Shown here: positions 7,428-38,131 of the stretch, piece by piece
Numbering within the stretch: the stretch's first letter is position 1
Layout of the letters: each line of letters begins with the position of its first letter
Source of the DNA: a virus
Direction: 5' to 3' (one strand)
Length of the DNA stretch: 64,000 nucleotides
Virus record (IMG/VR): IMGVR_UViG_3300009082_000017
Span: 96,043 to 160,042 of that record
Notes under the pieces: model-generated
Database searches by the model: none
Seen by the model: the letters and a program-made list of their open reading frames with translations, nothing else
Told to the model about the DNA's origin: nothing
Made by a program: the position numbers and the translations under genes

Positions 7428-8258
7428 TTGAAAGAATTACAACCGGCAATCAAATGGTCAGGAAGTAAACGTCCTATTGCAAAAGAAATTGTAGAATCAT
7501 TTCCAGATAATATTGAAACATATTATGAACCTTTTTGTGGCGGATGTTCTGTACTGTATTATTTATTGAATAGCAATAAACTTGGTGCAAAACGATATGT
7601 TTGTTCAGATATCAATAATGATTTAATAGATTTGTGGAATACAATTAAATCTAATCCAAGTCAAGTTATTAATAATTATTCGAGAATGTGGAATGAGTTA
7701 CAAGTTTTAAGTATTGCAGATCGCAGACAATATTTCTACGATGTTCGAAGTAGATTCAATAAAGAAAAATCACCTTATGACTTTATGTTTATTATGAGAA
7801 CTACAACCAATGGTATGCCTAGATATAATAAATTAGGAGAATTTAATAATTCTTTTCATATTACAAGAGATGGTATTAATCCAAAAGAATTTACAACTAC
7901 GATTGATAAATGGTCTAGTTTATTAAATAATTATGAAGTAGAATTTGTTTGTCAAGATTATATTAATATTGTTTCAGATAGCGAAGATGTGATTTATTTA
8001 GACCCGCCTTATGCTGGGACAAAAGGAATGTATTATGGAGTAATTGATTATAATAAATTATGGGAATGGGTGAAGATTCAAAAAGGATTTGTCGCACTAA
8101 GTTTTGATGGAAGAACCACAAGCACAGAATATTCTGATTTAGTTCCAAAGGATATTTTTAGTAATCATAAATTGATTTGTTCTGGTAATTCTTCATTCAG
8201 AAGGACTATCGGAAAATCAAGATCAGAGTATGTTTATGAAAGTTTATATACCCAATGA
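7428..8258 (+). CDS. DNA adenine methyltransferase, Dam/D12 class
   Basis: About 276 aa. KWSGSKR at the N-terminus and EPFCGG form the SAM-binding site (motif X/I); DINNDLI is motif II; YLDPPYAG at about 191-198 is the catalytic DPPY motif. The order X-I-...-IV fits the alpha (D12) group, which makes N6-methyladenine, often at GATC. TTG 7428 has GAAAGGA upstream; the longer in-frame ATG at 7395 sits in the arm of a dyad repeat and lacks such a site. Confidence 0.9.
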   Translation: MKELQPAIKWSGSKRPIAKEIVESFPDNIETYYEPFCGGCSVLYYLLNSNKLGAKRYVCSDINNDLIDLWNTIKSNPSQVINNYSRMWNELQVLSIADRRQYFYDVRSRFNKEKSPYDFMFIMRTTTNGMPRYNKLGEFNNSFHITRDGINPKEFTTTIDKWSSLLNNYEVEFVCQDYINIVSDSEDVIYLDPPYAGTKGMYYGVIDYNKLWEWVKIQKGFVALSFDGRTTSTEYSDLVPKDIFSNHKLICSGNSSFRRTIGKSRSEYVYESLYTQ

Positions 8259-8285
8259 AAGAACTATTTCATGGAGAATAAACAT

Positions 8286-8474
8286 TTGAAAACTAAAAAT
8301 TTGGTATATTATTTATTTGGGGCAAATGATCTAGTTTCTTTATGGAAGTTGTTTCTTGCCACTATCTCAATAAAATATTTTTTGCCTAATAGACGATCCA
8401 AAAAAATGTTAAGAGAAAAGATAAAATATCTTAAAATATTAGAAAACATAAATAAGGAGAATAAAAATGAGTAA
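8286..8474 (+). CDS. hypothetical basic protein, about 62 aa
   Basis: TTG 8286 lies nine bases after GGAG; an in-frame ATG at 8271 is inside the dyad repeat arm. The protein is Lys-rich with a central hydrophobic stretch. It overlaps the next gene by eight bases. Confidence 0.5.
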   Translation: MKTKNLVYYLFGANDLVSLWKLFLATISIKYFLPNRRSKKMLREKIKYLKILENINKENKNE

Positions 8475-8655
8475 ATATCTTGTAAATATTATGGTTCCTG
8501 TAACTTTTCAAATTAAAATTGAAGCTGAAAATGAAGATGAAGCGTGGGATATTGCAGAAAAAGAAGGCTATGATCGTATTGATTTTTCTAGTGATGCAAT
8601 TGATGACGATAAGGGTGGCAGTGAAGTATATGATGTAATGCTTGATAGTGATTAA
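8467..8655 (+). CDS. hypothetical acidic protein, 62 aa
   Basis: The ATG follows AAGGAGAATAAAA. A strand-rich N-terminus (KYLVNIMVPVTFQIKIEA) is followed by an Asp/Glu-rich tail. This size and layout are common in small phage proteins of unknown function. Confidence 0.6.
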   Translation: MSKYLVNIMVPVTFQIKIEAENEDEAWDIAEKEGYDRIDFSSDAIDDDKGGSEVYDVMLDSD

Positions 8656-8694
8656 CCCAATGAAAGGACTCTTTCATGGGAGAAAGGACAAATT

Positions 8695-9069
8695 ATGAAT
8701 AAAAAACAATGGTTTTTGAATATTGAAGGAAGCAAACAAAAGTGGGATATCCCAATCGAGATCAATGAAAAATATCTTTCTGACTACACATCAGATAATC
8801 TCAAAATTCATTATCAATACATCCCTATAAAATTTTCTTTATCTAAAAAATATGTATATGGCATTGATGTTAGAGGCAAGTATAAGCAATGGGGACTCCC
8901 TGTTGAGGCTACACCTAAAGAAGTAGAAGCATGGAGAGAAGATGGTATAGAGATTAATCGAATTATAAATTCTATCCCATCTTGGTGGGTAGATATGGGA
9001 TTCTCTGTTAGGGTTTGGTGCTTTTGGCAGGATGTGTTTAATTTTAATAATCCGTTTGTAAATAAGTAA
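8695..9069 (+). CDS. hypothetical protein, 124 aa
   Basis: Preceded by GAAAGGACAAATT. It is rich in Trp and aromatic residues (SIPSWWVDMGFSVRVWCFW). No family recognised. Confidence 0.6.
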   Translation: MNKKQWFLNIEGSKQKWDIPIEINEKYLSDYTSDNLKIHYQYIPIKFSLSKKYVYGIDVRGKYKQWGLPVEATPKEVEAWREDGIEINRIINSIPSWWVDMGFSVRVWCFWQDVFNFNNPFVNK

Positions 9070-9125
9070 TTATCACAAAACAAACTAATCGTATTATTAA
9101 TTACATTATAGGAGGATTTTTTCTA

Positions 9126-9920
9126 TTGAACAAAAAAATAAAAATTTATAATTTGAAATATTTTTTTATTACCATTTGTTTGTTAATTTTTATATTCTTT
9201 ATTTTTCAAAAACAGTCTAGTGTTGTTGCGGTATTCTCAACTCCTACTTCAATCCCATTCCCAGAAAAGACTCCTATGGTTTTTGATCATTCTGAAATAA
9301 ACAATGATAATTATAAATATAATGGATATTGGGAAGGGAACTATTGGATAAAAGGAGTCCCCTCATATGAAACTCTTATGCTTAGAATGCCAATGGTTGC
9401 CGGTGGTTCGGCAGTTACTTACGATCCTTATTTAATGGAAGTCACTGCAAATAAAGCGGGATTTGATATTGAAAAATATGTTGGAACCGTCGCTGTTTCT
9501 TTTTGGTCAGAAGTGGGGCATGAAGTGTGGATATATCATCCTAATTATGGTTGGGAAGGCCCATTTTTAGTAGTAGATGTGTCTCGACAAATTGATGTTT
9601 ATCGTCAAATTGTATATCAAAATCAAGTTGTTGAATTAGATTTTGAAACAGCAAAAAGATGGGAGATGTGGGAAGTGGTTAATGGAAATAATATTTTGGT
9701 AAATGGCAGGGTTGATGGAGTTATTGTATCAAAAGTTCCACCAGAAAAAGTAAATAGGTATCCTGTTGTACAATTATCAGATTTCTTTTTAGAGAATGTG
9801 AAATATATAACTTCTTATGAAAAAACGCCAGTATATAATCCTCCTAAAAATACGGGGCTACCACTTCCTATCTGGAAAATAGGTGATTATTGGGTAATAT
9901 TCCCAACAGAAAAATATTAA
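9126..9920 (+). CDS. membrane-anchored or secreted protein with a double-psi-barrel-like domain
   Basis: 264 aa with a TTG start after AGGAGG. Residues about 11-30 form one hydrophobic segment (signal peptide or anchor), so the rest probably lies outside the membrane. The central part (VGHEVWIYHPNYGWEGPFLVVDVS, read in two overlapping pieces of the sequence, then YRQIVYQNQVVELDFETA) resembles RlpA-like double-psi beta-barrel proteins that bind or cut peptidoglycan. I recall similar proteins in Chloroflexi, a weak host hint. A cell-wall role is inference; no catalytic residue is assigned. Confidence 0.4.
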   Translation: MNKKIKIYNLKYFFITICLLIFIFFIFQKQSSVVAVFSTPTSIPFPEKTPMVFDHSEINNDNYKYNGYWEGNYWIKGVPSYETLMLRMPMVAGGSAVTYDPYLMEVTANKAGFDIEKYVGTVAVSFWSEVGHEVWIYHPNYGWEGPFLVVDVSRQIDVYRQIVYQNQVVELDFETAKRWEMWEVVNGNNILVNGRVDGVIVSKVPPEKVNRYPVVQLSDFFLENVKYITSYEKTPVYNPPKNTGLPLPIWKIGDYWVIFPTEKY

Positions 9921-9924
9921 ATTG

Positions 9925-9952
9925 TTTATACCACTATATGTGATGGTATAAA
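9925..9952 (+). repeat. 9-bp perfect hairpin after the barrel-protein gene
   Basis: TTTATACCA (9925-9933) and TGGTATAAA (9944-9952) are perfect inverted repeats with a 10-base loop. No T-run follows, so it is not a standard terminator. A related CACTATATG sequence recurs 3' of it near 9964. Confidence 0.6.
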
Positions 9953-10074
9953 AAGTAACGACACACTATATGATGTATATATAATTCAACGGAAAATTGT
10001 GAATGGCATATGATTATATATCCAAGTGTAGGATAATTACTTCATGAAATATAACCTTCATGGAAACTAGTTCA

Positions 10075-10123
10075 AAATTGGTATCAATTTACCCTTGACA
10101 AAAATCAAATTATGTGATAGACT
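10075..10123 (+). promoter_or_regulatory. promoter with AAATTGGTATC box
   Basis: TTGACA 10095-10100, 17 bases, TAGACT 10118-10123 with TGA before it. The upstream box AAATTGGTATC is at 10075-10085. It should drive the structured leader and the gene at 10359. Confidence 0.75.
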
Positions 10124-10129
10124 TGTATA

Positions 10130-10358
10130 GTCTTGGTACGCGGATATACTTTTGGAGATGAAGGAGATGGGGTCGCGGTTGGGATTGCTGGGCGACTAAC
10201 CAAAAGAAATTTAGCATAAGATAGAAGCAAAATAAAGTGTATGAATATGCTTCAAAAAATCTTGGTGAGATTAATTATATAATAATATGTATAAGATTCC
10301 TAGAAATAAACTCACAAAATACTAGGATTAAAAAAACTTATAAAGGAGAAAAACAAAA
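10130..10358 (+). ncRNA. structured RNA leader or small RNA, about 230 nt
   Basis: There is no gene between the promoter and 10359 apart from a possible 13-codon frame (10158-10199). This stretch is much richer in G than its surroundings. CTTTTGG (10149-10155) pairs with CCAAAAG (10200-10206). Inside, GTCGC (172-176) pairs with GCGAC (192-196) and GGTT (177-180) could form a pseudoknot with AACC (198-201). Downstream, GAAGCA/TGCTTC and TCCTAG/CTAGGA make two more hairpins. I match it to no known riboswitch or ribozyme. Confidence 0.5.
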
Positions 10359-10652
10359 TTGAAAGATTATAGAAAAACACATAGTAAAATTCGAATCCCC
10401 GCAAAACAAAATAATAACATTATTGTTTCACCTCTATCTACCTCCAAAGAAGAAACTTCTGTCGAAGGCTTAGAACCTAAAATCATTCCCGATAACGGCA
10501 AACGTTTTACAGTTAAATCCAATCAATGGGTTATGGAGAAGTTTCAAAACCAAGACACTCCTACTAGAAAAATTATTGATTTAGGTAAAGATTTGACCTG
10601 GCAGGAAGCCAAGAAAATGAAGAAAGAAAATAAGAATTCGTGGATTATTTAA
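10359..10652 (+). CDS. hypothetical basic protein, 97 aa
   Basis: TTG start after AAAGGAGAAAAACAAAA. The N-terminal half looks disordered; the C-terminus is KKMKKENKN-rich. It is the first gene behind the structured leader, so it is probably controlled by it. Function unknown. Confidence 0.6.
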   Translation: MKDYRKTHSKIRIPAKQNNNIIVSPLSTSKEETSVEGLEPKIIPDNGKRFTVKSNQWVMEKFQNQDTPTRKIIDLGKDLTWQEAKKMKKENKNSWII

Positions 10653-10694
10653 TTCCCCATAAAACGAATATTTCATGTGATAAGAGAGACGTAA

Positions 10695-10868
10695 ATGTGT
10701 TTTAAAAAGAAAAATAATAAATATATGAAATGCCCATTATGTAGAGGGAAAGGTTATACGGGAATTATAATACATGAAAAGTGTCCAAGGTGTGAAGGCG
10801 ATAAAAAAGTATTAAAATCAGAAGACGAATCAAAAACTTGTGGAACTTGTGGTGGAAGATTAGATTGA
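10695..10868 (+). CDS. small zinc-finger protein, DnaJ-type CxxCxGxG repeats
   Basis: 57 aa. CPLCRGKGYTG, CPRCEGDK and CGTCGGR follow the DnaJ central zinc-finger pattern. No J domain is present. Its TGA overlaps the ATG of the next gene. It may be a free-standing zinc-binding adaptor. Confidence 0.65.
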   Translation: MCFKKKNNKYMKCPLCRGKGYTGIIIHEKCPRCEGDKKVLKSEDESKTCGTCGGRLD

Positions 10869-11380
10869 TGCGTTATCTCGTACATTTAAAAAATATTTTG
10901 CTTCATAAATATTATGTTTTTTTTGCTTGTTTGAAATTAAAAGTCCCTTTGTATTTAGCAATTTTTCACGATATTTCAAAATTTAAATTATCTGAATTTA
11001 TTCCATATGCTAAATATTATTATAATAAAGACGGATCTCATGCCGATGTAAAAGACAAACACGGTGAATTAGAATACACTAAAGAAGCAAACAATATTAA
11101 AGTGGCGTGGCTATATCATTCTCATACAAACAGGCATCATTGGAACTATTGGATTACTATTAGGTCTGATGGATTAATTTATCCAAATATAATTCCCGAT
11201 AAATATATAAAAGAAATGGTTGCAGATTGGATAGGTGCATCTAAAGCTTATAATCTAAATATTAAGGTTATTGATTGGTATAATAAGGAAAAAGAAAACT
11301 TAATATTACATCAAGATACTAGAACAAAAATAGAAAAAATATTACAAATATTGGAGTATAATGGAAATAATAGAAACTGA
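10868..11380 (+). CDS. DUF5662-like protein
   Basis: 170 aa from ATG 10868, which overlaps the previous TGA. FHDISKFKLSEFIPYAKYYY and HHWNYW resemble the phage DUF5662 family, which carries His/Asp motifs reminiscent of metal-dependent HD proteins. Activity is unproven. It overlaps the epimerase gene by 20 bases. Confidence 0.65.
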   Translation: MRYLVHLKNILLHKYYVFFACLKLKVPLYLAIFHDISKFKLSEFIPYAKYYYNKDGSHADVKDKHGELEYTKEANNIKVAWLYHSHTNRHHWNYWITIRSDGLIYPNIIPDKYIKEMVADWIGASKAYNLNIKVIDWYNKEKENLILHQDTRTKIEKILQILEYNGNNRN

Positions 11381-11903
11381 AATCCCAGAAGTTGTTATTT
11401 TTAATCCCATTATTTATGGAGATAATAGAGGTTTTTTTGCAGAGATATTTGTTTATAAAGAATTTGAAAATAGATGTGGGAATTATTTATTTGTTCAAGA
11501 AAATTATTCAAAATCTATTAAGAATACTTTACGTGGACTTCATTATCAATTACAAAAAGAGCAAGGCAAATTGGTATCTTGTATTAATGGTGAAATATTT
11601 GATGTGGCTGTGGATATTAGAAAAAATTCGCCCACTTATAAAAAATATGTATCTGTTTTATTATCAGATAAAAACAAAAAAATGGTTTGGATTCCACCTG
11701 GATTTGCTCACGGGTTTTTTACTTTAAGCGATATTGCCGAAATAGAATATCGTTGTACAAATTATTATAGCAAAGAAAATGAAAGAGGTATTAGGTGGGA
11801 TGATCCGAGTGTTGGAATTAATTGGCCTATACAAGATGGAGAATTGCCTATATTGTCTGAAAAAGATAGTAAATTAAATTTTATTAATAGTGAGGAGAAT
11901 TGA
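11361..11903 (+). CDS. rfbC: dTDP-4-dehydrorhamnose 3,5-epimerase (RmlC) family
   Basis: 180 aa, normal length for RmlC. RGLHYQ carries the catalytic His; VDIRKNSPTY, WIPPGFAHGF and GIRWDDPSVGI are family signatures. RmlC epimerises C3 and C5 of a dTDP-4-keto-6-deoxyhexose. It opens the sugar island and overlaps the next gene by one base. The exact substrate may differ because the next gene encodes a C3-deoxygenating enzyme. Confidence 0.88.
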   Translation: MEIIETEIPEVVIFNPIIYGDNRGFFAEIFVYKEFENRCGNYLFVQENYSKSIKNTLRGLHYQLQKEQGKLVSCINGEIFDVAVDIRKNSPTYKKYVSVLLSDKNKKMVWIPPGFAHGFFTLSDIAEIEYRCTNYYSKENERGIRWDDPSVGINWPIQDGELPILSEKDSKLNFINSEEN

Positions 11904-13039
11904 TGCAAAAAGGTAATACGTTGAAAGTTCCAGTTACTGGGCAAGTTACAGGCGATGAAGAAACTGAAGCAATTATAGAAGTTGCAAAATCAAAGCAATA
12001 TGCTCCTAATAAAAAAGTTGAGCAATTTGAGCATGATTTTGCAAAATTTGTTAAAAAAAGATATGGTTTATTTGTAAATAGTGGATCTTCTGCTAATTTA
12101 TTAGCGACAACTGCTTGGGCGAAATATCATGAAAAAGAAACAAAAGCATTGGAATGTACTCTTCCTGCTTTAATGTTTCCTACTACCTTGAATCCCTATC
12201 TCCAAAATAATTTTACTATAAAATTAATAGACGTAGAAGTTGAAACTCTGCAAGCAAAAAGCCCAGAAAAACATGGTGTGCATACATTAGGGAATTATGC
12301 GGATTTGTCAAATATAGAGGACAGTTGTGACGCCATGCTTCCAGGTCATTACAAGGGAGAGATACAAACCTTTTCTTTCTTCCCCGCACATTTTTTGTGT
12401 ACCGGCGAAGGGGGAATGGTCACTACAGATAATCCTGAATTATATAAGTTGATGCGTTCAATTATGCATTGGGGTAAGGATTGCTGGTGCCCTCTTGGTA
12501 GCGACAATACTTGTGGTAAAAGATTTGAACATCAATTTGGAGAAATGCCTTATGGGTATGATCATAAATATATTTATACCAATATTGGATATAATTTAGC
12601 CAATACTGAAATGGCTGCTGCAATGGGAATTGAACAATTGAAAAAACTTCCTTATTTTCTTGAAACTAGAAAAAATAATTTTAAGAAATTATATGAAGGA
12701 TTGTCTAAATTTTCTGATAGCTTTATTCTTCCAAAAACAGTTTTACCAGATACTCCATGGTTTGCATTTCCTATTACCGTCAAAAGAGAATCAAAAATTT
12801 CAAGACGAGATATGGTAGAATTTCTTAATAATGAAGGTGTTGCTTCAAGACCTATCATGGGTGGAAATTTAAAGAGACAACCTGCATATTTAAATATAAA
12901 ATTTAAGTATGGTGGGATATTAGAAAATTCTGATCTCATCACAGATAATTCATTTTATATTGGTTTATGGCATGGATTGTTCGAAGAACAAATTGAATAT
13001 AGTATTAATACTATTGAAAGATTTATGGAAATGCAATGA
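11903..13039 (+). CDS. RfbH/E1-like CDP-4-dehydro-6-deoxyglucose 3-dehydratase
   Basis: 378 aa of the DegT/DnrJ/EryC1 fold. The residue that is the PLP-binding Lys in aminotransferases is His163 here (SFFPAH). The cysteine set Cys142...Cys194-x-Cys196-x7-Cys204, with GKDCWCPLGSDNTCGKRF context, matches the [2Fe-2S] site of RfbH/E1, the PMP-dependent enzyme that removes the C3 hydroxyl on the way to 3,6-dideoxyhexoses. The gap after the first Cys is 51 residues, shorter than I recall for E1. The start is ATG 11903 after GAGGAG. Its reductase partner is not in this window. Confidence 0.8.
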   Translation: MQKGNTLKVPVTGQVTGDEETEAIIEVAKSKQYAPNKKVEQFEHDFAKFVKKRYGLFVNSGSSANLLATTAWAKYHEKETKALECTLPALMFPTTLNPYLQNNFTIKLIDVEVETLQAKSPEKHGVHTLGNYADLSNIEDSCDAMLPGHYKGEIQTFSFFPAHFLCTGEGGMVTTDNPELYKLMRSIMHWGKDCWCPLGSDNTCGKRFEHQFGEMPYGYDHKYIYTNIGYNLANTEMAAAMGIEQLKKLPYFLETRKNNFKKLYEGLSKFSDSFILPKTVLPDTPWFAFPITVKRESKISRRDMVEFLNNEGVASRPIMGGNLKRQPAYLNIKFKYGGILENSDLITDNSFYIGLWHGLFEEQIEYSINTIERFMEMQ

Positions 13040-13746
13040 AAATATTAGCATTAGGATACGGAAAGTTAGGACAAGAAATTGTTAAACAATCTGGTTGGGA
13101 TTATATTAGCCGAGAAAAAAATAATTTTGATTTCAACAATATAAATTCTTACAATAAATATCTTTACAATTATGACACAATAATAAATTGTATAGCAAAC
13201 ACATATACTTATTCTGACGACAAACAATCAATGATCGATACTAACTTCAAAGCAGTTGTGAACCTAATAGAATTCTCAAATTTGTATAATAAGAAGTTAA
13301 TCCAAATAGGAACGGATTACATTTATGATGGGTCAGTAGAAAATGCTTCAGAAGAAGATATTCCTGTCCATGCAAGAAATTGGTATTCTTATTCAAAACT
13401 TTTAATAGATGGATATATACAAAGCTTTTGTGAAAATTATTTATTAATAAGAACATCGTTCAAGTCCAATCCATTTCCTTATCCAAAAGCAATCACTACG
13501 CAAAAAGGTAATTTTGATTATACAGATAAAATTGTTGAAAAAATAATTAACTTAATAAACAATAATGCAATCGGTGTTTACAATGTTGGACATAATACAC
13601 CATGGACTATTTACGAAATGGCTTTAGAAACAAATAAAGATGTTGTACCTTGTGATGATATTTTAAATGAATCAATGCCTACAAATATTACAATGAATAT
13701 GGAGAAGTATAATGAGTTTATTAGAAATCTTAATACCGGTTTATAA
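13036..13746 (+). CDS. NAD(P)-dependent sugar reductase/epimerase (RmlD-like SDR)
   Basis: 236 aa. MKILALGYGKLGQEI is the Rossmann glycine motif; TDYIYDG and the YSYSK (YxxxK) catalytic pair are typical of RmlD/NDP-sugar dehydratase SDRs. It overlaps neighbours on both sides by a few to 35 bases. It probably reduces a keto group of a nucleotide sugar made by the two preceding enzymes. Confidence 0.78.
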   Translation: MKILALGYGKLGQEIVKQSGWDYISREKNNFDFNNINSYNKYLYNYDTIINCIANTYTYSDDKQSMIDTNFKAVVNLIEFSNLYNKKLIQIGTDYIYDGSVENASEEDIPVHARNWYSYSKLLIDGYIQSFCENYLLIRTSFKSNPFPYPKAITTQKGNFDYTDKIVEKIINLINNNAIGVYNVGHNTPWTIYEMALETNKDVVPCDDILNESMPTNITMNMEKYNEFIRNLNTGL

Positions 13747-14404
13747 TATGCAAGGTAAGGGACTGGAAATGCTTGCATACAGTTTTAAACAACTTAAGTT
13801 GCAGCGTTTTAAAGATTTTAGCGTTCTTATTTCTGATGATTCAGAAGATGAAACAATTAAAACTTATGTAAGTGGGATCAAAGACCTAGAAATAAAATAT
13901 GTAAAAAATGAAGGGATGCATAGTATTGCTGGCAATATGAATAATGCCATTAAAAATGCAACTGGAGAAATTCTTCAAGTAATGTGTCAAGATGATTATT
14001 TTTACAATAAAGATTCTTTACAAAAAATTGTAGATAATTTTGATAGGGGTAAGGGTTGGATGTGTAGTATGTATATGCATACAAAAGACAGGCTAGGGTT
14101 ATTCAATCAACAAATTCCCAAATGGAATCCTAAGATTTGTTTGGATAATACTTTGGGCACACCTTCTTGTTTGTCATTTTTGAACGATAAAGACGTTCCT
14201 TTATTGGATGAAAATTTAAAATGGTATGTTGATTGTGACCATTATTATCGGTTATTCAAAAAATGGGGCGAACCTAAGATTTTGAAAGAATTAATTTTTG
14301 TTCAGTTATTATGGGAAGGACAAACGACTCAAGGAATTACTCAAGAAATTGTTAATACTGAAGTTGCATATATTAATGATAAGTATGTAGGAGAGTTGGG
14401 TTGA
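13712..14404 (+). CDS. glycosyltransferase family 2
   Basis: 230 aa. EILIPVYNMQGKG at the N-terminus, ISDDSEDET and the CQDDYF metal-binding acidic motif are GT-A/GT2 features. It should transfer a sugar from a nucleotide sugar. The acceptor is unknown. Confidence 0.85.
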   Translation: MSLLEILIPVYNMQGKGLEMLAYSFKQLKLQRFKDFSVLISDDSEDETIKTYVSGIKDLEIKYVKNEGMHSIAGNMNNAIKNATGEILQVMCQDDYFYNKDSLQKIVDNFDRGKGWMCSMYMHTKDRLGLFNQQIPKWNPKICLDNTLGTPSCLSFLNDKDVPLLDENLKWYVDCDHYYRLFKKWGEPKILKELIFVQLLWEGQTTQGITQEIVNTEVAYINDKYVGELG

Positions 14405-15054
14405 AAAAATATTTAAAAGATGTTACTCTCCTTGCATATGATACTCGCCCAGATAAAATTGAAGGGACTATTTGGGCACTACAAAAATGTTGTGAGGGAT
14501 TAGATTTTTATGAGGTTAAGTTGTTGACAGATATAATGCCTGATAATTTACCTGAAAATATTAAATTGGAATATGCTCCACACATTAATCATATTAATGA
14601 TTTTAATTTGTATATGTTCTTAGAGTTAGGGAAACACATAGATAGTTCACATTGTTTGTATGTACAGGATCATGGGTTTGTTATTTCGCCTCAGATTTGG
14701 CGTGATGAGTGGTTAGAATACGATTATATTGGGGCTGGATGGAATTGGATGCCTGATGCTTATGTTTGTCATGAAACGGGTGAACATGTTCGACAGGGCA
14801 ATGGGGGATTTTCACTTCGCAGTTCTCAAATTTTAAATTTGCCTAAAGAAAAAGGGTGGTATTTGAAAGAAGAACAAGGCTGGAAAAATGAAGATGGACA
14901 AGTGTGTGTTTATTGGCGCAAAGATATGTTAAAAAATGGAATAAAATATGCCCCTATTGAAGTTGCATCTGTTTTTTCTTATGAAAAAGATACCCCAGAG
15001 AATATGAATATTAAAGAATTTTTCGGATATCATAGAAATATGCCTAGGAGATAA
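14401..15054 (+). CDS. DUF5672 glycosyltransferase-like protein
   Basis: 217 aa with a TTG start overlapping the previous stop. YVQDHGFVISPQIW, YDYIGAGWNW and GNGGFSLRS are DUF5672 signatures. The family is associated with glycan synthesis loci. The donor is unknown. Confidence 0.75.
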   Translation: MKKYLKDVTLLAYDTRPDKIEGTIWALQKCCEGLDFYEVKLLTDIMPDNLPENIKLEYAPHINHINDFNLYMFLELGKHIDSSHCLYVQDHGFVISPQIWRDEWLEYDYIGAGWNWMPDAYVCHETGEHVRQGNGGFSLRSSQILNLPKEKGWYLKEEQGWKNEDGQVCVYWRKDMLKNGIKYAPIEVASVFSYEKDTPENMNIKEFFGYHRNMPRR

Positions 15055-15056
15055 TA

Positions 15057-15713
15057 TTGAATAAACTTTTTATAATTAGTCGATATAATGAAGATTATTC
15101 TTGGATAAAAGAATATACTAAAAATTATCTTATTTATAATAAAGGTGATCTAATTTTAGATGATTCTCACGTTATCAATACCGAAAATATTGGTGGAAAT
15201 CAACGAGACATATCCAAATTTGCTTTTGAAAATTATAATAATTTACCAGATATTATGATATTTATTCAGTCGTTTGTTTGGGATCATTGTAAAAAAGATA
15301 TTTTTGACAACCTAATCCAAAATACAACATTTACCCCTTTGGAATATTATGGAAGTATTCCGGCAAATGGATGGGAACAAAGAGATGAATTTGGAGGGTT
15401 CCTTGAGACGAATAATAATTGGTACATTTCTGCACATAATTCAACTTATAATTTAACTTGCAGATATGAATCTTTTGATCAGTTTATGAATAAATATTTT
15501 GAAGACTACCAACATTTAGATTTTATTCGTTTTGCTCCAGGTTCACAATATATCATTACACCAAAAGAAATTTTACAATATCCAAAAACATTTTGGAAAT
15601 GCTTGATGGAAGAATTGACAACAAAAAATTCAACTGAAGCGCACATCGTAGAAAGAAGTTTATATTATATTCTTAATGGTGATTATAATTTGAGAAAGGA
15701 TTTTTATGGATAA
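15057..15713 (+). CDS. DUF3431 family protein, probable glycosyltransferase
   Basis: 218 aa with a TTG start two bases after the previous stop. IISRYNEDYSWI, ENIGGNQRDISKFA and LPDIMIFIQSF match the DUF3431 pattern found in glycosylation clusters. Confidence 0.7.
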   Translation: MNKLFIISRYNEDYSWIKEYTKNYLIYNKGDLILDDSHVINTENIGGNQRDISKFAFENYNNLPDIMIFIQSFVWDHCKKDIFDNLIQNTTFTPLEYYGSIPANGWEQRDEFGGFLETNNNWYISAHNSTYNLTCRYESFDQFMNKYFEDYQHLDFIRFAPGSQYIITPKEILQYPKTFWKCLMEELTTKNSTEAHIVERSLYYILNGDYNLRKDFYG

Positions 15714-16641
15714 TTTTTCACAATACAAACCAGGTTTACATAAATTGGTTCATCATTTAGATCATTTAAAAAAATTACAAAACAGAGAACCATCCTCCCC
15801 TTTACATTTATCTGTTTTCCCTACAAATTTTTGCCAATTAGAATGTCCTTATTGTGGATTTAGAAAAGTAAAAAGAAATAACACAGAATTATCTTTTGAA
15901 GATTTTAGCAAAGCAATTGATGTTTTAGTAAAGTATGGGTTGAAAGCTATGGAACAATCAGGTGGTGGTGATCCTCTTTTATGGTCTCATTTTGATAAGG
16001 CAACAGAATATGCATATAACAAAGGTTTGAAATTATCACTAGTCACTAATGGATTGGAATTAGGTCACATGTCATCAAAAACTTTATCTTTATTTTCTTG
16101 GATACGAGTTTCAATACAATCAGAAGCATATGCAAGAAAAATAGATTTGAGTAAAATTCCAAATAATATAAAAAGAAGTATGTCATTTATTGTTCACGAT
16201 GAAAAATCTTTTAATGAATTGGATAAAATACATGAATTTGCAAAAGAAAAAAATATTCTTATTAGGATTGCACCAAATAGACCTTGCGACAAAAGTTGGG
16301 CAAATAAAGTAAAAGATAAAGCAGAAAATTTAGGACACCCATTTTTGTTTTTTGAAAAATCTAATGAAACTCCTAACGGATGCTACATGGCTTGGATAAG
16401 AGCAGCATTAGATTGGGAAGGTAATTTTCTTCCTTGCCCATCAATTGAATTGACACCAGAATGTGCTGGATATATTCCTGATAATTTTAAATTATGCAAA
16501 GTGTCGGAATTGGAAGAATGGATTTTAAATAACCCTGTACACGATTTAGGACATCGTTGTAAATTCTGCAATTGTGGTAAAGACACAAATGATTTTGTGT
16601 ATGGGATGCTTCAAGATATAGAGGATGTGGATTTTGTATAA
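15706..16641 (+). CDS. radical SAM protein with C-terminal Cys cluster
   Basis: 311 aa. The motif CQLECPYC provides CxxxCxxC for the SAM [4Fe-4S] cluster; SGGGDPLLW and LVTNGLELG are typical core motifs. The C-terminal third has cysteines (CPS..., CKFCNCG) like the twitch/SPASM auxiliary cluster. Such enzymes act on peptides or sugars. In this island a sugar modification is plausible. Confidence 0.85.
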   Translation: MDNFSQYKPGLHKLVHHLDHLKKLQNREPSSPLHLSVFPTNFCQLECPYCGFRKVKRNNTELSFEDFSKAIDVLVKYGLKAMEQSGGGDPLLWSHFDKATEYAYNKGLKLSLVTNGLELGHMSSKTLSLFSWIRVSIQSEAYARKIDLSKIPNNIKRSMSFIVHDEKSFNELDKIHEFAKEKNILIRIAPNRPCDKSWANKVKDKAENLGHPFLFFEKSNETPNGCYMAWIRAALDWEGNFLPCPSIELTPECAGYIPDNFKLCKVSELEEWILNNPVHDLGHRCKFCNCGKDTNDFVYGMLQDIEDVDFV

Positions 16642-17272
16642 TATTGATGGGAATTTTTTTGATAAAGATTATTTTGAAAATGGGAAACAAACCAATAAAA
16701 GTTTCTATGAAAATTATCATTGGATGCCTCAAAGAAGTTTTAGAGAAGCGTTAGCTTTTATTGACTGTTTGCAACTCAATGAAAATTCTTATGTTCTAGA
16801 AATTGGCTGTGCGAAAGGTTTTCTTATTCGTGCATTAAGAGAATTAGAAATTAAAGTAGATGGTGCAGATATCAGCAATTATGCCTTGTCGTTTGCACCG
16901 GAAGGATGTTGGAATTGCTCGAATGATTCTTCTTGGGATAACCATGCTAATTTTGGATACACAAATATAATTATCAAAGATATGTTGGAACACTTGAATA
17001 AAGAACAATTGGGAATATCTTTAAATAATTTTTCAAAAGTTTCAAATAAAATGATATGTGTTGTTCCAATTGGAAGCAATGGTAAATATCGAATCCCAGA
17101 ATATGAATGTGATCAGAGCCACGTCATACGAGAAAACGAGTCATTCTGGTATTGTTTTTTTGAAATGAATGGTTGGAAAGTTATAAATCATTTTCCACAT
17201 TTAAAAGGGATAAAAGATAATTGGACTCATTATCCTGATGGCAACCATGTTTTTGTATTGGAGTATAAATAA
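16625..17272 (+). CDS. class I SAM-dependent methyltransferase
   Basis: 215 aa. VLEIGCAKGFLIRAL is motif I and VDGADIS is motif II of the Rossmann methyltransferase fold; KDMLEHL is the motif IV region. The start overlaps the preceding gene by 17 bases. It probably methylates a sugar or a small molecule. Confidence 0.8.
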   Translation: MWILYNIDGNFFDKDYFENGKQTNKSFYENYHWMPQRSFREALAFIDCLQLNENSYVLEIGCAKGFLIRALRELEIKVDGADISNYALSFAPEGCWNCSNDSSWDNHANFGYTNIIIKDMLEHLNKEQLGISLNNFSKVSNKMICVVPIGSNGKYRIPEYECDQSHVIRENESFWYCFFEMNGWKVINHFPHLKGIKDNWTHYPDGNHVFVLEYK

Positions 17273-18126
17273 TGTTGAGTATTGATTTAACCGGTAACTG
17301 CGGAGACCAAATCCTACGCTACTGTATTTGCAGAAGTGTAGCTGAAAAAAACAATTATAGGTATGGGATAAATTCAATTACTAGTAATGATTATTATAAT
17401 GGAAAAGGACAATTATATTTTTTTAAGGGTATTGATTATGGTGAACCTAACAATACACCCTTTAGTCAATTGCCCCCAAACACAGACAATGTTTGGGAAG
17501 AAAAAAGAGAGTTTTATCAAGGATATAATTTTCATCCTTTCCAACCAGATATTTTTGATGTTACACCTAATACTAAATTGATAGTTTATTGTGGACAAGA
17601 TGCATTCTATCTGGATAAAGAAAAAGTTTCGAAATGGTTAGAGATTAAAGATGAATATGCGGAAGAATCTAAAAGGTTATTAGAAGGATCAGAAATTGAA
17701 TTAAATGAAAATACTTGTGTGATTAATTGTCGTGGTGGAGAATATAAATCAGTTCCATCTTTATTTTTAACACATAATTATTGGGACAAAGCAATTGCTT
17801 TTATGAAACAAAAAAATCCTAACTTTAAATTTATTGTTGTTACGGAAGATCCAGAATTTTATAAAACATTTTTTGATGTACCTGTTTATCATTTTAATAT
17901 TCATACTGATTACTATATTCTTAATAATGCAAAAAATATTATCGCTTCAAATTCTGGGTTTGGAATATTTCCGATTTGGACTAATAAAAATAATCCATAT
18001 GTTATCGCCCCTTATTTATGGGCGAATCATAACTACGGTGAGAATGAGGAGTGGGCAAATTCGAATATGAGAAGTTGGGATTGTTTTAATTTTATGGATA
18101 GGGATGGAGAGTTGTATGACAAATGA
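17272..18126 (+). CDS. glycosyltransferase, fucosyltransferase-like
   Basis: 284 aa. The N-terminus LTGNCGDQILRYCI, the central NCRGGEYKSVPS (compare HxRRGDY), VVTEDPEFY and ASNSGFGIFPIWT follow the motif order of GT11-type alpha-1,2-fucosyltransferases. The exact sugar is uncertain. Confidence 0.6.
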   Translation: MLSIDLTGNCGDQILRYCICRSVAEKNNYRYGINSITSNDYYNGKGQLYFFKGIDYGEPNNTPFSQLPPNTDNVWEEKREFYQGYNFHPFQPDIFDVTPNTKLIVYCGQDAFYLDKEKVSKWLEIKDEYAEESKRLLEGSEIELNENTCVINCRGGEYKSVPSLFLTHNYWDKAIAFMKQKNPNFKFIVVTEDPEFYKTFFDVPVYHFNIHTDYYILNNAKNIIASNSGFGIFPIWTNKNNPYVIAPYLWANHNYGENEEWANSNMRSWDCFNFMDRDGELYDK

Positions 18127-18144
18127 GTTGCATAAGGGCGGAGT

Positions 18145-18864
18145 ATGTTTATTTATAAAACGACAAACTTAGTTAATGGTAAAATTTATATAGGGCAATC
18201 TCAGCACGACATTAGTTTTGATTATTTAGGTTCTGGAGTATTGTTTACAAAAGCTATAAAAAAATATGGAAAGAAAAATTTTAAAAGAGAAATTTTAGAA
18301 GACGGTATTGTTGATATAAAAACATTAAATGATAGAGAAATTTATTGGATAGAATATTTTCATGCGACGGATATAAATATAGGATATAATATTTCTATAG
18401 GAGGATTCGGTACAATAGATCCTACTGGAAGAGTTGCAAAAAGAATATCTGAAGGAAGAAAAGGGGTTAGGTTATCTGAAGAGTCTAAAAAAATATTATC
18501 AGATGCACATCTTGGAATAAGACAAACAGAAGAAAGTAAAGTGAAAATATCAAAAACATGCAAAGAGAATATAGAAAAATTTGGTCATCCTCAAGCGGGG
18601 ATACCTAAACCTGAAGAATTAAAAGAAATTATGCGGAGAAATTCTCAAGGCAAAATTCGTGGAGGGGCATCCAAATATATAGGTGTTCAAAAAGGAAGAA
18701 GAAAAAAGTGGAAATCCCAAATAGTTTATAAGAAAAAGATTTATTATTTGGGAGAATTTGACGATGAAAAAGATGCGGCAAGAGCATATAATAATAAAGC
18801 ATTAGAGCTTTATGGGACAACCGCTAGATTAAATATTATAGAAGAGGATGAGAATAATGAATAA
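18145..18864 (+). CDS. GIY-YIG homing endonuclease with NUMOD3 and AP2 domains
   Basis: 239 aa. N-terminal FIYKTTN...KIYIGQS is the GIY-YIG core; SEESKKILSDAHLG and TEESKVKIS are NUMOD3 DNA-binding repeats; the C-terminal SKYIGVQKG...YYLGEFDDEKDAARAYN is an AP2-type DNA-binding domain. It is inserted between glycan genes without breaking them, as expected for a free-standing mobile endonuclease gene. Confidence 0.9.
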   Translation: MFIYKTTNLVNGKIYIGQSQHDISFDYLGSGVLFTKAIKKYGKKNFKREILEDGIVDIKTLNDREIYWIEYFHATDINIGYNISIGGFGTIDPTGRVAKRISEGRKGVRLSEESKKILSDAHLGIRQTEESKVKISKTCKENIEKFGHPQAGIPKPEELKEIMRRNSQGKIRGGASKYIGVQKGRRKKWKSQIVYKKKIYYLGEFDDEKDAARAYNNKALELYGTTARLNIIEEDENNE

Positions 18865-19594
18865 TTTTAAAATTTATTTTAGAATTTCTAGCAAGGGCAA
18901 TCCACTTGGACGCACAGAACTTTCTGGTACTGAATTAGATGGAATTACTAGACAAGATTGTTTTAATAATTTATTAAGAGTTTTTGGTACAGAGAATTTA
19001 ATAGTGATTGCAGATAATGCTGACGATGATGTAATATCATTTTTACAATCTAAAGGAATAAAAAATATTGATAGAACATATTTTGGGAATACTCTTAGTT
19101 TTAGATATATTTTAGATCGAGCAGTTAGTGAATTAGATGAGGATGGCATTGTTTACTTTTTAGAAGATGACTATGCTCACAATTATAATGCCGAAACAAT
19201 AATTAGGGAAGGGCTAGAAATTGGGGATTATGTATCCTTATATGACAGCATGGACAAATACAAAGATACTGATAAAGGAGGATATAATCCCTTTATTCAT
19301 AATGGAGGGGAAGATACGAGAGTGATGATTACAGATACTTGTCATTGGAAAATTACAAATGCTACGACTATGAGTTTTGCTTCAAAAATAAAAACGTTGC
19401 GAGAAGATTATGGTGTAATTACAAAATATTGTCCTAATGGCGCACAGCATCCCATGGATTTTTTGATGTTTAGAGAATTGGTTACGCAAAAAAACAGAAA
19501 ATTAATCAATCCTATCCCTGGATATTCTGCACATATTGGGCTTGAAATGTCACCTTTTGTTCCATGGATTAAATTATTAAAAGGAGAATTATGA
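18857..19594 (+). CDS. glycosyltransferase-like protein, GT-A type
   Basis: About 245 aa. VYFLEDDYAHN gives a DxD-like metal motif in a GT-A context; CHWKITNATTMSF follows. ATG 18857 has GAGG nine bases upstream, and ATG 18848 is also possible. The family is not certain. Confidence 0.6.
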   Translation: MNNFKIYFRISSKGNPLGRTELSGTELDGITRQDCFNNLLRVFGTENLIVIADNADDDVISFLQSKGIKNIDRTYFGNTLSFRYILDRAVSELDEDGIVYFLEDDYAHNYNAETIIREGLEIGDYVSLYDSMDKYKDTDKGGYNPFIHNGGEDTRVMITDTCHWKITNATTMSFASKIKTLREDYGVITKYCPNGAQHPMDFLMFRELVTQKNRKLINPIPGYSAHIGLEMSPFVPWIKLLKGEL

Positions 19595-20214
19595 GTAAAG
19601 ATATTGCTATTGAAGTACTTAAATATTTAGATTTTAATGATGGGGTGTACTTTGACGCAGGCGCGCAAAATGGCGAATTTCAGTCGAACACAGTCATTTT
19701 AGAAAGAGCAAAAAATTGGACAGGTATACTTGTGGAACCATCTCCAAAAGCATATAGTGATTGCTTGAAAAATAGAAGCCAAGAAAAAAATATTATTATT
19801 CATGGAGCATTAGTTTCTGCCGATTATGGTAAACCTACTATTATGGGGGATTTCTTTGGTCATCCTATGAATAGTATTGGTGGTAAAAGATTAAATAATG
19901 CAGGTAATTCTGTTATTGAAGTTCCCGCTTATACTATGAATGAAGTTTTGGAAAAATATAACGTTGATAAAATTGATTTTCTAAGTTTGGATATCGAAGG
20001 GCTAGAATACTGGGTATTGAAAGATTTAAACTTTGATAAATGGGCACCAAAATGGGCATTGATTGAATGGAACGAAGGGGAAGATGAATTATTTCCATTT
20101 ATGAAAAGTAAAGGATATGACTGTGTTGGAAATATTTCTGATTTTAATTTAGTGGACGACCCTCAATGGCCTCAAACACACCAAGACTGGCTCTTCAAAT
20201 TAAAGGATAAATAA
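19591..20214 (+). CDS. FkbM-family methyltransferase
   Basis: 207 aa. YFDAGAQNGEFQSN (SAM site), ILVEPSPKAY, PAYTMNEVL and DFLSLDIEGLEYWVL are hallmarks of FkbM methyltransferases, which usually O-methylate sugars. It fits the surrounding glycan island. Confidence 0.88.
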   Translation: MSKDIAIEVLKYLDFNDGVYFDAGAQNGEFQSNTVILERAKNWTGILVEPSPKAYSDCLKNRSQEKNIIIHGALVSADYGKPTIMGDFFGHPMNSIGGKRLNNAGNSVIEVPAYTMNEVLEKYNVDKIDFLSLDIEGLEYWVLKDLNFDKWAPKWALIEWNEGEDELFPFMKSKGYDCVGNISDFNLVDDPQWPQTHQDWLFKLKDK

Positions 20215-20218
20215 TATT

Positions 20219-21037
20219 ATGTCAAAAGTCTATGACGTTCAAACAGTCTTTAATGAAATTGATACATGGATGCTCCGTTTCGAGGTCTTGAATGATTCAG
20301 TAGATTATTTTGTAGTTAACGAGGCACCGTTAACTTTTAGTGGCAAACCTAAACCTTTATATTTCTGGGAGAATCGTGATAAGTTTGCAAAATTTTCAAA
20401 CAAAATTATCTACAATGTTTTTGACGAAGAAAAACAAGGTTGGGATCAATGGGATAGGGATAGAGAACATAAAAATGGAGCGATGAAAGCTCTTGAAGGT
20501 GTCGCCAATGATGAAGATATAATTTTCTATTCCGATGCTGACGAAATCTGGAACCCTTCCAATATCAATTTTGATAATTTTAAAGATGACACTTTATATA
20601 TTCTATACCAATCGGTATATTATTACTATCTAAATTGCCTTTGGGAAAATACTGTAGACCCAACTGCCATTTGGAGAGGGAGCCGTTATAGCTCCTATGG
20701 TTTATTAAAAAATCATTCTTTTGATGCTTTTAGAGCATACGATGGGTATTTCTTCCAGAATCAATTATTTAAAAAAGAATATATTAATAAAGGTGGTTGG
20801 CACTTTTCATTCTTAGGAGGCGCTGAGAATATTAAATATAAAATAGATTCTTACGGCCATCAAGAACTTAATGTACCTGTTATTAATGATAATGTTCAAA
20901 ATAATATTGATGCTTTACGAGATCCATTTTTCAGACCAAATTTCAGAATTAGTCCCATTGATATAACTTTAGAGACTCATCCTAAATATTTAGTTGATCA
21001 TTTAAATGAATATAGTAAATATATTTATAAAAGTTAA
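20219..21037 (+). CDS. glycosyltransferase family 17-like
   Basis: 272 aa. The N-terminus FNEIDTWMLRFEVLNDSVDYFVV with TFSGKPKPLYF, and then FYSDADEIWNP, match GT17-type beta-N-acetylglucosaminyltransferase relatives found in bacteria and viruses. The donor sugar is unproven. Confidence 0.78.
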   Translation: MSKVYDVQTVFNEIDTWMLRFEVLNDSVDYFVVNEAPLTFSGKPKPLYFWENRDKFAKFSNKIIYNVFDEEKQGWDQWDRDREHKNGAMKALEGVANDEDIIFYSDADEIWNPSNINFDNFKDDTLYILYQSVYYYYLNCLWENTVDPTAIWRGSRYSSYGLLKNHSFDAFRAYDGYFFQNQLFKKEYINKGGWHFSFLGGAENIKYKIDSYGHQELNVPVINDNVQNNIDALRDPFFRPNFRISPIDITLETHPKYLVDHLNEYSKYIYKS

Positions 21038-21050
21038 TTTGTTTTAACCC

Positions 21051-21079
21051 TTGACAGATTTTAGTTTATGTGTTATAGT
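21051..21079 (+). promoter_or_regulatory. internal promoter in the glycan island
   Basis: TTGACA 21051-21056, 17 bases, TATAGT 21074-21079 preceded by TGT. GTTTTAACCC directly upstream is identical to the sequence before the promoter at 25610. Confidence 0.75.
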
Positions 21080-21109
21080 AATAGAAATATATTGGGTTAG
21101 GAGGATAAG

Positions 21110-21745
21110 GTGAAATTAGACCAAATTTTTGAATTAGGATATTTAATCAATTTAAAAGAAAGAGTTGATCGTTGGGAATTATGCGATCATGAGTTCTATA
21201 AAATCAATTATTATCCACAACGATTTGAAGCAATTAAAAATGAAGTAGGTAGAGTTGGATGCTTTCTTAGTCATTTAGAAATATTAAAAAAAGCACAAAG
21301 AGAAAATAAAAATGTTTTAATAATGGAGGATGATGTAGAGTTTGATGAAGATTGCAGACAAGTATTGGAAGCGTCTCTAGACGAACTTTGTGATTTAAAT
21401 TTTGATATGGCTTATTTCGGTGGGAATATTCTCCGTCCATTTTTCCAAGTCACAAAACATTGGGCAAGATTAAGCCATTGCCAATCAACCCATTGTTATA
21501 GTATTCATCGAAATTTTTTATCAACAATTATAAATTTTCTTGAAAATAATTCTACTCAAAAAACAGGATTGGCAATTGATCAATTATATGCAGACTATCT
21601 TATTCCTAATTGTAAAGCTTATATTATTATGCCCATAATCGCAAGACAACGTTCGGATTTTTCAACTATTGAAAATAGAGAAGTAACTTATGATTTGCCG
21701 GTTAAAAGATATTGGCATTATTTGGTGAAAAATGAAAAAGTGTAA
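21110..21745 (+). CDS. glycosyltransferase family 25
   Basis: 211 aa, GTG start after AGGAGG. YLINLKERVDRWE, GRVGCFLSHLEILKKA and VLIMEDDVEFD are GT25 motifs, as in LPS and collagen galactosyltransferases. It is the first gene after its own promoter. Confidence 0.87.
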   Translation: MKLDQIFELGYLINLKERVDRWELCDHEFYKINYYPQRFEAIKNEVGRVGCFLSHLEILKKAQRENKNVLIMEDDVEFDEDCRQVLEASLDELCDLNFDMAYFGGNILRPFFQVTKHWARLSHCQSTHCYSIHRNFLSTIINFLENNSTQKTGLAIDQLYADYLIPNCKAYIIMPIIARQRSDFSTIENREVTYDLPVKRYWHYLVKNEKV

Positions 21746-22577
21746 AACAATTATATTCTCTCGCAATCGTCCTCTTCAATTAACCTTATGCCTTAAAACA
21801 TTATTAAATCATTGTACGGACATTTTACAACAATCAAACATTACAGTTTTATACAGAAATGATGAGGAATATCGGCAGTCTTTTGACAATTTAATGTTGG
21901 AATTTCCCCAAATATCGTTCAAAAAGGAGGAAAATTTCAAAAAAGACCTGCTTTCTTTGCTACCACATGAAAGCAACATTTCATGGGGTAAAAATGAAGG
22001 TTTTGTCACTTTTGTTGTCGATGATCAGATTTTCACCGAAGATTTTTCAATGAAAGAAGTTATTTCAACACTTGTTGAAAATCAGGATTGTATAGGGTTT
22101 AGTTTACGTCTTGGCAAAAATTGTGTACGATGTTTCCCTTATGATTGTGAGCAAGCAATTCCAAAGACAGAAAAAGTTTCAAAGAATGTTGTAAAATATA
22201 ATTGGCAAGAAGCAGAGTATGACTTCAATTATTGTTTAGAGTTATCTGCAAGCGTTTACAGGGTAAACGACCTTATAGAGATGTTTGAGATTTGCGATTA
22301 TGACTCACCCAACCACCTCGAATCAATTATGAGTTCGTGTTTTTATAAGGACAAACCAAACCTTTTAATGTTTGAAAAATCGGCATCCTTCAGTTATCCG
22401 ATGAATAAGGTTCAAACATCACACCCAAATAGGAGTGGAGATTTCAATCCTGACACTCTTAGATTAATTTATGAAAAGGGTGGAAGATTTGAAAATAAGC
22501 AATTTGATGGTTATATTAGTAATGGAGCACATGAGATTCCAGAAAGTATAAATTTGGTGGACACATATGGCAAATGA
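21732..22577 (+). CDS. glycosyltransferase-like protein carrying an internal dyad repeat
   Basis: 281 aa. TIIFSRNRPLQLTLCLKTLL and FVVDDQIF are consistent with a GT-A fold. A complete copy of the intergenic dyad (21966-21985) lies inside the frame and encodes HESNIS. It overlaps both neighbours. Confidence 0.6.
   Translation: MKKCKTIIFSRNRPLQLTLCLKTLLNHCTDILQQSNITVLYRNDEEYRQSFDNLMLEFPQISFKKEENFKKDLLSLLPHESNISWGKNEGFVTFVVDDQIFTEDFSMKEVISTLVENQDCIGFSLRLGKNCVRCFPYDCEQAIPKTEKVSKNVVKYNWQEAEYDFNYCLELSASVYRVNDLIEMFEICDYDSPNHLESIMSSCFYKDKPNLLMFEKSASFSYPMNKVQTSHPNRSGDFNPDTLRLIYEKGGRFENKQFDGYISNGAHEIPESINLVDTYGK
21966..21985. repeat. dyad repeat inside a glycosyltransferase gene
   Basis: CATGAAA-gcaaca-TTTCATG, a perfect member of the family but in frame in the gene at 21732 and far from any gene junction. 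Confidence 0.8.
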
Positions 22578-23349
22578 TCTAGTAAGTATCTTAACCCCCA
22601 CATACAACCGTCCAGACTGGTTAGTATTAACATTGAAATCATTAATTGCACAAACCTATACTAATTGGGAATGTATCGTGGTAAATGATGCTGGTATGGA
22701 TGTTGGTAATATTATAAAAAATCTTGACGATAATAGAATAAAATATTATACAAACCCCGTTAATTTGGATTTGTCGGGTACGCGCAATGTGGCAACAGAA
22801 AAAGCAACTGGTGATTGGTTTATTATGCTTGACGATGATGATCAACTTTTTCCAGAAGCCATTGAATTTAGATTATGGAGAGCACATAAATTAAATGCAG
22901 AAATAGTTTATTCTAGGGTTTTGCAATGTTATTACGAAAAACGAGATAATGGTTATCAATATATTGGAGAAAAGCTTTATTGGGACAGCATTTATGACCC
23001 AGATTTGATACTTTTGCAAAATGTTAGCCCTTGCAATGGAATAATGTATTCTAGGAAAGCGCAAGAAGTAGGAGGATTGTTTGATACCGAATTAAAAGCA
23101 GGAGAAGATTGGTCGCATTCAATTGCTATGTCAAGACATTATCCGTTTTATGAAACTAAAATTATTGACTGTAGTTGTAGTTTTCGGACAGACAATAACC
23201 AAATGACCGGTAGCCGCAATTTTGCAATAGATCAAGCAAAGATTTATAAAAGATGGCGTTCGACAGCAAAGAACTTATCTTGGGTAGTTGAGAATCAAAA
23301 CAAATCATTATTAGCACGAGGGATTAATCCTTCTGACTTTGGACTATAG
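22567..23349 (+). CDS. glycosyltransferase family 2
   Basis: 260 aa. VSILTPTYNRPDWL, VVNDAGMD, LSGTRNVA and FIMLDDDDQLFPE are classic GT2 motifs. The C-terminal acceptor region is unassigned. Confidence 0.9.
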   Translation: MANDLVSILTPTYNRPDWLVLTLKSLIAQTYTNWECIVVNDAGMDVGNIIKNLDDNRIKYYTNPVNLDLSGTRNVATEKATGDWFIMLDDDDQLFPEAIEFRLWRAHKLNAEIVYSRVLQCYYEKRDNGYQYIGEKLYWDSIYDPDLILLQNVSPCNGIMYSRKAQEVGGLFDTELKAGEDWSHSIAMSRHYPFYETKIIDCSCSFRTDNNQMTGSRNFAIDQAKIYKRWRSTAKNLSWVVENQNKSLLARGINPSDFGL

Positions 23350-23360
23350 GAGAGAATAAA

Positions 23361-25581: not shown

Positions 25582-25609
25582 TTTAATGTAACGAGTTTTG
25601 TTTTAACCC

Positions 25610-25638
25610 TTGACAAGATTTATATTTAATGATAAACT
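25610..25638 (+). promoter_or_regulatory. sigma70-type promoter, extended -10
   Basis: TTGACA 25610-25615, 17 bases, TAAACT 25633-25638 with TGA before it; preceded by GTTTTAACCC. Confidence 0.75.
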
Positions 25639-25672
25639 TCTTGCACAAATAAGAAAAAAGGAGAATAAAAAA

Positions 25673-26020: not shown

Positions 26021-26062
26021 GTTATTTAAGAATATTTGAATTTCAAAAGGAAGGAGGAATAC

Positions 26063-38128: not shown

Positions 38129-38131
38129 CAT

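Follow-up and report, generated by a model that had tools for sequence, protein, structure and literature searches.

The EAR element, a structured RNA with pseudoknot potential, lies between the genes of Bacillus exopolysaccharide operons. The put RNAs of phage HK022 comprise about 70 nt arranged in two stem-loops, and putL is placed directly behind its promoter (PMC9378689). Regarding 5′ stabilisers of mRNA, the review PMC3997798 cites the STAB-SD, the aprE 5′ stem-loop that works together with ribosome binding, not with translation, and a polypurine stabiliser at the 5′ end. The stretch at positions 10130–10358 (plus strand) of the phage DNA studied here resembles the Gram-positive stabilisers in being a 5′ leader with a predicted stem-loop, with a purine stretch of Shine-Dalgarno (SD) type that serves no real gene and with an open ribosome-binding site downstream. 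It differs from them in its greater length, in the 20 nt that separate the inferred start from its main stem and in carrying two repeated hairpins with 18-nt loops, and its stabilising effect is putative. The likeness to HK022 put lies in a compact, probably folded RNA placed shortly behind a phage promoter and before a long operon, but no sequence or Rfam relation is apparent, no terminators were found downstream, and the host is probably not a gamma-proteobacterium. The resemblance to EAR is in the pseudoknot potential and in a structured RNA that stands before a set of sugar-polymer genes; unlike EAR, the phage element has no Rfam match and is part of a 5′ leader instead of standing between operon genes. 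Based on the evidence collected below, 10130–10358 is understood as the 5′ untranslated leader of an operon that extends from a 97-aa gene into glycan genes, most likely a leader of the mRNA-stabilising, Gram-positive kind, a reading that we hold at somewhat below even confidence.

The DNA analysed (64,000 nt, hereafter the window) comprises positions 96043–160042 of the 160,042-base IMG/VR virus record IMGVR_UViG_3300009082_000017. Judged by gene content, the source is a large tailed phage. Its DNA polymerase has the best matches in phages of Alicyclobacillus, Rossellomorea and Brevibacillus (~33% identity), and from these matches, and these only, a Gram-positive host appears likely. The island behind the leader encodes a dTDP-4-dehydrorhamnose 3,5-epimerase, a DegT-type aminotransferase, an RmlD-like reductase, a glycosyl transferase and a radical-SAM protein. 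The preliminary description placed the leader at the entry to this glycan island, and the location is right, but three small genes precede the first sugar gene (RmlC-type, 11361): that of the 97-aa protein (10359–10652, plus strand), which has no family match, one for a 57-aa product with weak DnaJ-zinc similarity, and one for a DUF5662 protein. Further away, a group I intron (Rfam RF00028) occupies 63171–63455 of the window, where the first frame of the gene for the ribonucleotide-reductase large subunit ends. Two genes at 1357–2556 and 26036–27211 look OrfB/TnpB-like from reading of their translations; a TnpA partner was not noticed.

The promoter recognised before the leader is confirmed, with the -35 and -10 hexamers of a sigma-A/70-type site (TTGACA-17-TAGACT with TG) at 10095–10123 on the plus strand, and it is one of 18 family sites that a weight matrix finds in the 160-kb genome (ACCCTTGACA, 17 bases, TGTG(A/G)TA..T). 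Members of this family of strong, host-type promoters (ACCCTTGACA-N-TGTGRTA) are located in the window at 10095, 21051, 25610, 28980, 29551, 36091, 48290 and 56566, with the others elsewhere in the genome. The segment 10074–10127 matches other places in the same genome, the leader body showing only short matches at chance level, and transcription presumably starts at about 10130. Distances to the start codon are bimodal in the family, with 10 promoters at 18–32 nt and 8 at 59 nt or more; the 10095 promoter, at 229–230 nt, falls in the long-leader group. The ~11 kb that follow (10359–21037) are without a further promoter of the family.

The earlier statement of about 230 bases without a gene is confirmed in that the 229 nt up to the TTG at 10359 contain no convincing gene and no open reading frame of coding character. 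Its companion, unusual G-richness, applies to a patch at 10149–10206 (23 G and 31 G+C in 58 nt), which ranks in the top 0.15% of genome windows for G and the top 0.23% for G+C. Windows this rich in G form 14 patches across the genome, 13 of them within open reading frames of at least 60 aa and the sole exception being 10149–10206. Within the patch and 24 nt after the inferred start begins the purine-rich stretch GGAGATGAAGGAGATGGGG (10154–10172, plus strand), whose two GGAG motifs offer a possible ribosome-binding site; the known stabilisers likewise have a stretch of this type close to the 5′ end and no long gene behind it, and here only a 13-codon frame, MKEMGSRLGLLGD (10158–10199, plus strand), is attached. 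That frame had been described as lying, with its own Shine-Dalgarno sequence, between the arms of an outer stem. The frame is present, but the GGAG at 10154–10157 runs directly into the ATG at 10158, leaving no spacer, and could serve only an inner ATG at 10167 (9-nt spacer). Of 11,934 windows taken from the phage's genes, only 6 have codons as rare as those of the frame, CGG and CTG each accounting for ~1% of their synonyms in the phage. With its rare codons and abutting SD the frame is probably not a gene, which argues against the region being coding.

The stems named in the preliminary description all exist at their places, but their statistics are weaker than had been stated. In the G-rich core (10149–10206, plus strand; MFE -12.9 kcal/mol), the closing stem CTTTTGG/CCAAAAG (10149–10155/10200–10206) surrounds an inner GTCGC/GCGAC (10172–10176/10192–10196), with a possible GGTT/AACC pseudoknot (10177–10180/10198–10201), and two later hairpins are at 10224–10253 and 10298–10327. 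The longest perfect stem of the leader begins only at +21, away from the 5′ end. The MFE of the whole leader has a z of -1.25 (p ~0.11; 21 of 200 shuffles as stable or more), and the sub-regions 10149–10206, 10140–10210 and 10207–10358 have z values of -1.04, -1.89 and -1.77. Shuffled leaders contain about one perfect 7-bp inverted repeat each, and a 7-bp outer stem nested around a GC-rich 5-bp inner one turns up in 0.7% of the shuffled sequences and in 4% of windows drawn at random from the genome. In the ensemble, computed with an energy model that leaves pseudoknots outside, the probabilities are ~0.17 for the 7-bp stem, 0.27 for the GTCGC stem and ~0.55 for a pairing GGTTGG/CTAACC that excludes both, so that the core stems compete. 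The first nine bases of the leader pair with 10320–10328 at an ensemble probability of 0.5–0.8, and this long-range pairing and the stem of the second hairpin (U2, below) are mutually exclusive. The two predicted states could constitute a switch; nothing downstream visibly depends on it. A further pairing appears possible between GTGAG (10265–10269) and CTCAC (10311–10315) in the U2 loop.

A feature new relative to the preliminary description is that the two later hairpins look like copies of one unit. The first, U1 (10218–10263, plus strand), has the inner stem GAAGCA/TGCTTC (10224–10229/10248–10253), the 18-nt loop AAATAAAGTGTATGAATA and the outer stem AAGAT/ATCTT, with ensemble probabilities of ~0.9 (inner) and ~0.65 (outer). 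The second, U2 (10290–10342, plus strand), has the inner stem TCCTAG/CTAGGA (10298–10303/10322–10327), the 18-nt loop AAATAAACTCACAAAATA and a possible outer stem TATAAG/CTTATA, at 0.2–0.45 (inner) and ~0.01 (outer), and it adjoins the SD of the 97-aa gene. The two are 74 nt apart and share the 6-bp stem and the 18-nt loop; 12 of 18 loop bases are identical, with the loop edges kept as AAATAAA-N7-AATA, and all six stem pairs differ. Such a pair appeared in none of 8000 local shuffles of 10207–10358 under criteria set post hoc, and under a slightly looser rule the whole genome holds two such pairs, where shuffled genomes average 0.8. The pair is not exceptional genome-wide; its weight comes from its location in the leader. 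A search of the 160 kb with mismatches and G-U pairs allowed gave no third copy of loop plus stem, bar one poor match with a 16-nt loop. A kissing contact of the two loops was considered and dropped, since it would comprise 3 bp only. With their fully different stems, U1 and U2 offer a test of structure within a single genome that lacks relatives.

Comparative searches place the leader in near isolation. Rfam covariance models, as the check suggested with the preliminary description, gave no match at the leader, neither for the window at gathering score nor for 9900–10700 at E values up to 10, EAR, T-box and riboswitches included. The sole homologue in 2.9 million viral contigs, IMGVR_UViG_3300027792_000019 (79 kb), is identical throughout the 12,513 bases that surround the leader and 100% identical wherever compared, and it is, by this identity, the same phage; covariation between phages therefore gives neither support for nor refutation of the leader's shape. 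Phage and plasmid nucleotide collections returned 30-nt chance matches to the leader or nothing. The identical contig was likewise all that was found by a structure-shaped DNA pattern search of the viral contigs, by the DNA polymerase used as bait for nearer relatives, and by the 97-aa protein compared with annotated phages, viral contigs and bacterial genomes. A viral match of 32% identity to the 97-aa protein was rejected as chance, the protein being larger, differently built and set among unrelated genes. Around relatives of the DUF5662 protein (38–42% identity), no further gene is shared with the phage save ribonucleotide reductase in one, so that no leaders for comparison are available there.

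The output side of the leader appears to be open. The Shine-Dalgarno AAAGGAG (10342–10348) and the TTG start of the 97-aa ORF (10342–10361 together, plus strand) are mostly unpaired, with SD pairing probabilities of 0.01–0.42, and the leader contains no SD-complementary segment beyond a 5-nt A-rich one beside the SD. A strict scan of 9900–26300 found no intrinsic terminator on either strand, and a separate scan of the plus strand in 8000–14000 none either; the leader itself has none. In the absence of both terminator and SD-hiding pairing, control by attenuation, by a riboswitch or by hiding of the SD is unlikely, and the same two findings (no terminator in 9900–26300 on both strands, no anti-SD) point to a constitutive rather than a switching leader. 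The roles that would remain are in transcript stability, elongation or protein binding. Taken together, the label of an unassigned structured RNA leader mostly holds: the Rfam-negative, non-coding G-rich patch and the duplicated hairpin sustain it, overall folding that barely beats chance does not, and the leader is probably structured and has probably a control or stabilising role.

The leader is one of several. Over their first 110 nt, the eight long leaders of the promoter family have more stable folds than windows taken at random from the genome (Mann-Whitney p = 0.00017, or p = 0.0007 without the tRNA-bearing leader), a signal for which the higher G+C of some of them accounts in part; the 10130 leader alone compares with random windows at p 0.17–0.22. 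The longest stem starts at +2 to +8 in four of the eight, with a 10-bp stem from +2 in the leader at 25564 and an 8-bp stem from +2 in that at 41026 (both minus strand), and the leader at 46728 (plus strand) has an 8-bp stem around further pairing. None of the other long leaders has sequence in common with the 10130 leader. The group result supports a shared theme of folded 5′ leaders that have no sequence in common, which suits transcript stabilisation better than a specific sensor. At 46762–46893 of the genome (plus strand), a leader of 132 nt, in which the 8-bp stem ACTGGACT/AGTCCAGT encloses further hairpins, reaches a fold z of -3.5 and is, as modelled, a better candidate for a structured RNA than the 10130 leader. 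On the minus strand at ~38110–38405 of the genome, the ~290 nt that separate a family promoter from a tRNA have no Rfam family and fold strongly within a 533-nt leader (z of -4.8, tRNA included); they are possibly an undescribed non-coding RNA.

Several other explanations of the 10130 leader were weighed. Processive antitermination in the manner of HK022 put or the EAR element, the folded RNA binding to RNA polymerase shortly behind the promoter and causing read-through of a long operon, would account for a compact G-rich core of 58 nt set just behind a promoter and before ~11 kb devoid of another one of the family; we consider it unlikely, given the negative Rfam result, the other long leaders without sequence in common, and the lack of intrinsic terminators to be read through in 9900–26300, a scan confined to the intrinsic type, as distinct from Rho sites. 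Of similarly low probability is that U1 and U2 are both bound by a single RNA-binding protein, for instance one from the host or the 97-aa product itself, and that this protein regulates how the neighbouring gene is translated. Two copies equal in stem length, loop length and loop edges on different stems, with U2 ending right at the SD, are what such a protein might require, but there is no third copy in the genome, the 97-aa protein has no family match, and the outer pairing of U2 is next to absent from the ensemble. A ligand-sensing riboswitch, or some other undescribed RNA structure whose G-rich core contains a pseudoknot, is suggested by a GC-rich non-coding patch in an AT-rich genome and by nested stems with the potential GGTT/AACC contact. 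It appears quite improbable in view of the weak fold statistics, the identity of the sole homologue and an output offered by neither terminator nor SD sequestration.

Control by a leader peptide, in which ribosomes stalled on the 13-codon frame alter the fold downstream, had been raised in the preliminary description. The frame is complete, it lies between the arms of the outer stem, and it contains the very rare codons CGG and CTG; but rare codons are expected anyway from a GC-rich non-coding patch, the SD abuts the ATG, and there is no run of a single codon. The idea is weak because neither a terminator nor an alternative structure that hides the SD was found for such a peptide to control, and we regard it as highly improbable. 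That the leader is an ordinary long 5′ untranslated region, its stems due to chance, would agree with the whole-leader z, with the comparison to random windows (p ~0.2) and with the one 7-bp inverted repeat expected per shuffle. Against this stand the unique non-coding G-rich patch and the duplicated hairpin unit, and we deem chance alone very unlikely. A bolder proposal, to which we assign a distinctly low probability, is a new class of cis-acting phage RNA, with a G-rich pseudoknotted core and two hairpins, variable in the stem and conserved in the loop, that would modify the transcription or decay machinery, the 10130 leader being one of several unrelated structured leaders behind one promoter family.

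According to the mRNA-stabilising reading, which we prefer, the folded G-rich element near the 5′ end would be accompanied by GGAG motifs that bind ribosomes without driving a real gene. This element and the two hairpins right before the first gene would block decay that depends on the 5′ end, with the effect that the long transcript lives longer, and the pairing of the first nine bases with 10320–10328 would tuck in the 5′ end. Weighed against the proposal are the whole-leader fold z, a core z of about -1.0, the main stem at +21, the post hoc criteria for U1 and U2, and a Gram-positive host that is unproven.

The promoter of the leader is situated in a second genome-wide pattern. The most over-represented 8-mer of the genome, TTTCATGG (79 copies against 5.9 expected), is half of a 26-bp palindrome, ACCCMATRAAA-N6-TTTCATGGGGT, with 111 genome copies at a PWM score of at least 9 versus 2 in the reversed sequence. 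One copy at 10040–10065 (score 20.3) is centred 43 bp before the -35 hexamer, and a second (10655–10680, score 29.4) lies between the 97-aa and 57-aa genes; from 10,680 to ~21,960, across the glycan island, there is none. Six of the 18 family promoters, 10095 included, have a copy 21–43 bp upstream of the -35. The centres mostly lie 18–42 nt before start codons, with orientations relative to the gene divided 40 to 35; in the window they are found, for example, at 313, 3323, 4964, 5451, 7152, 8263, 8668, 10052 and 10667, and further at 28602, 34526, 36776, 51886 and 57702. Covariation at the RNA level was tested in the outer arms and is absent, so the element is likely a DNA site bound by a dimer, and the copies together have the look of an operator or stoperator system that spans the genome. 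The SPBRE/MrpR system of SPbeta is similar (PMC10516654). Like those operators and the stoperators of cluster A mycobacteriophages, the element is repeated in intergenic sites across one genome, with many near promoters; unlike them, it is palindromic, measures 26 bp, has more than 100 copies and is centred ~30 nt before start codons. In a distant relative of 127.5 kb, IMGVR_UViG_2808606549_000001, which has one protein at 57% identity, the element occurs 43 times versus 2, and nothing there matches the leader, the promoter family or the 97-aa protein. A Moorella phage has zero copies in 35 kb, and bacterial genomes contain 26 exact, isolated matches. A tyrosine-recombinase-like gene, recognised by reading of its translation, lies at 29605–30555 of the window behind its own family promoter; its product may be an integrase or, by analogy with MrpR of SPbeta, a repressor with that fold, and is hence a candidate binder of the element.

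If a repressor binds the palindromic element, the promoter of the leader would come under control of the lysogeny type. The regulation of large phages of probable Gram-positive hosts is poorly known. Should the 10130 leader and its sisters act to stabilise transcripts or to extend them, the way in which such a phage keeps long operons expressed from host-type promoters would become apparent.
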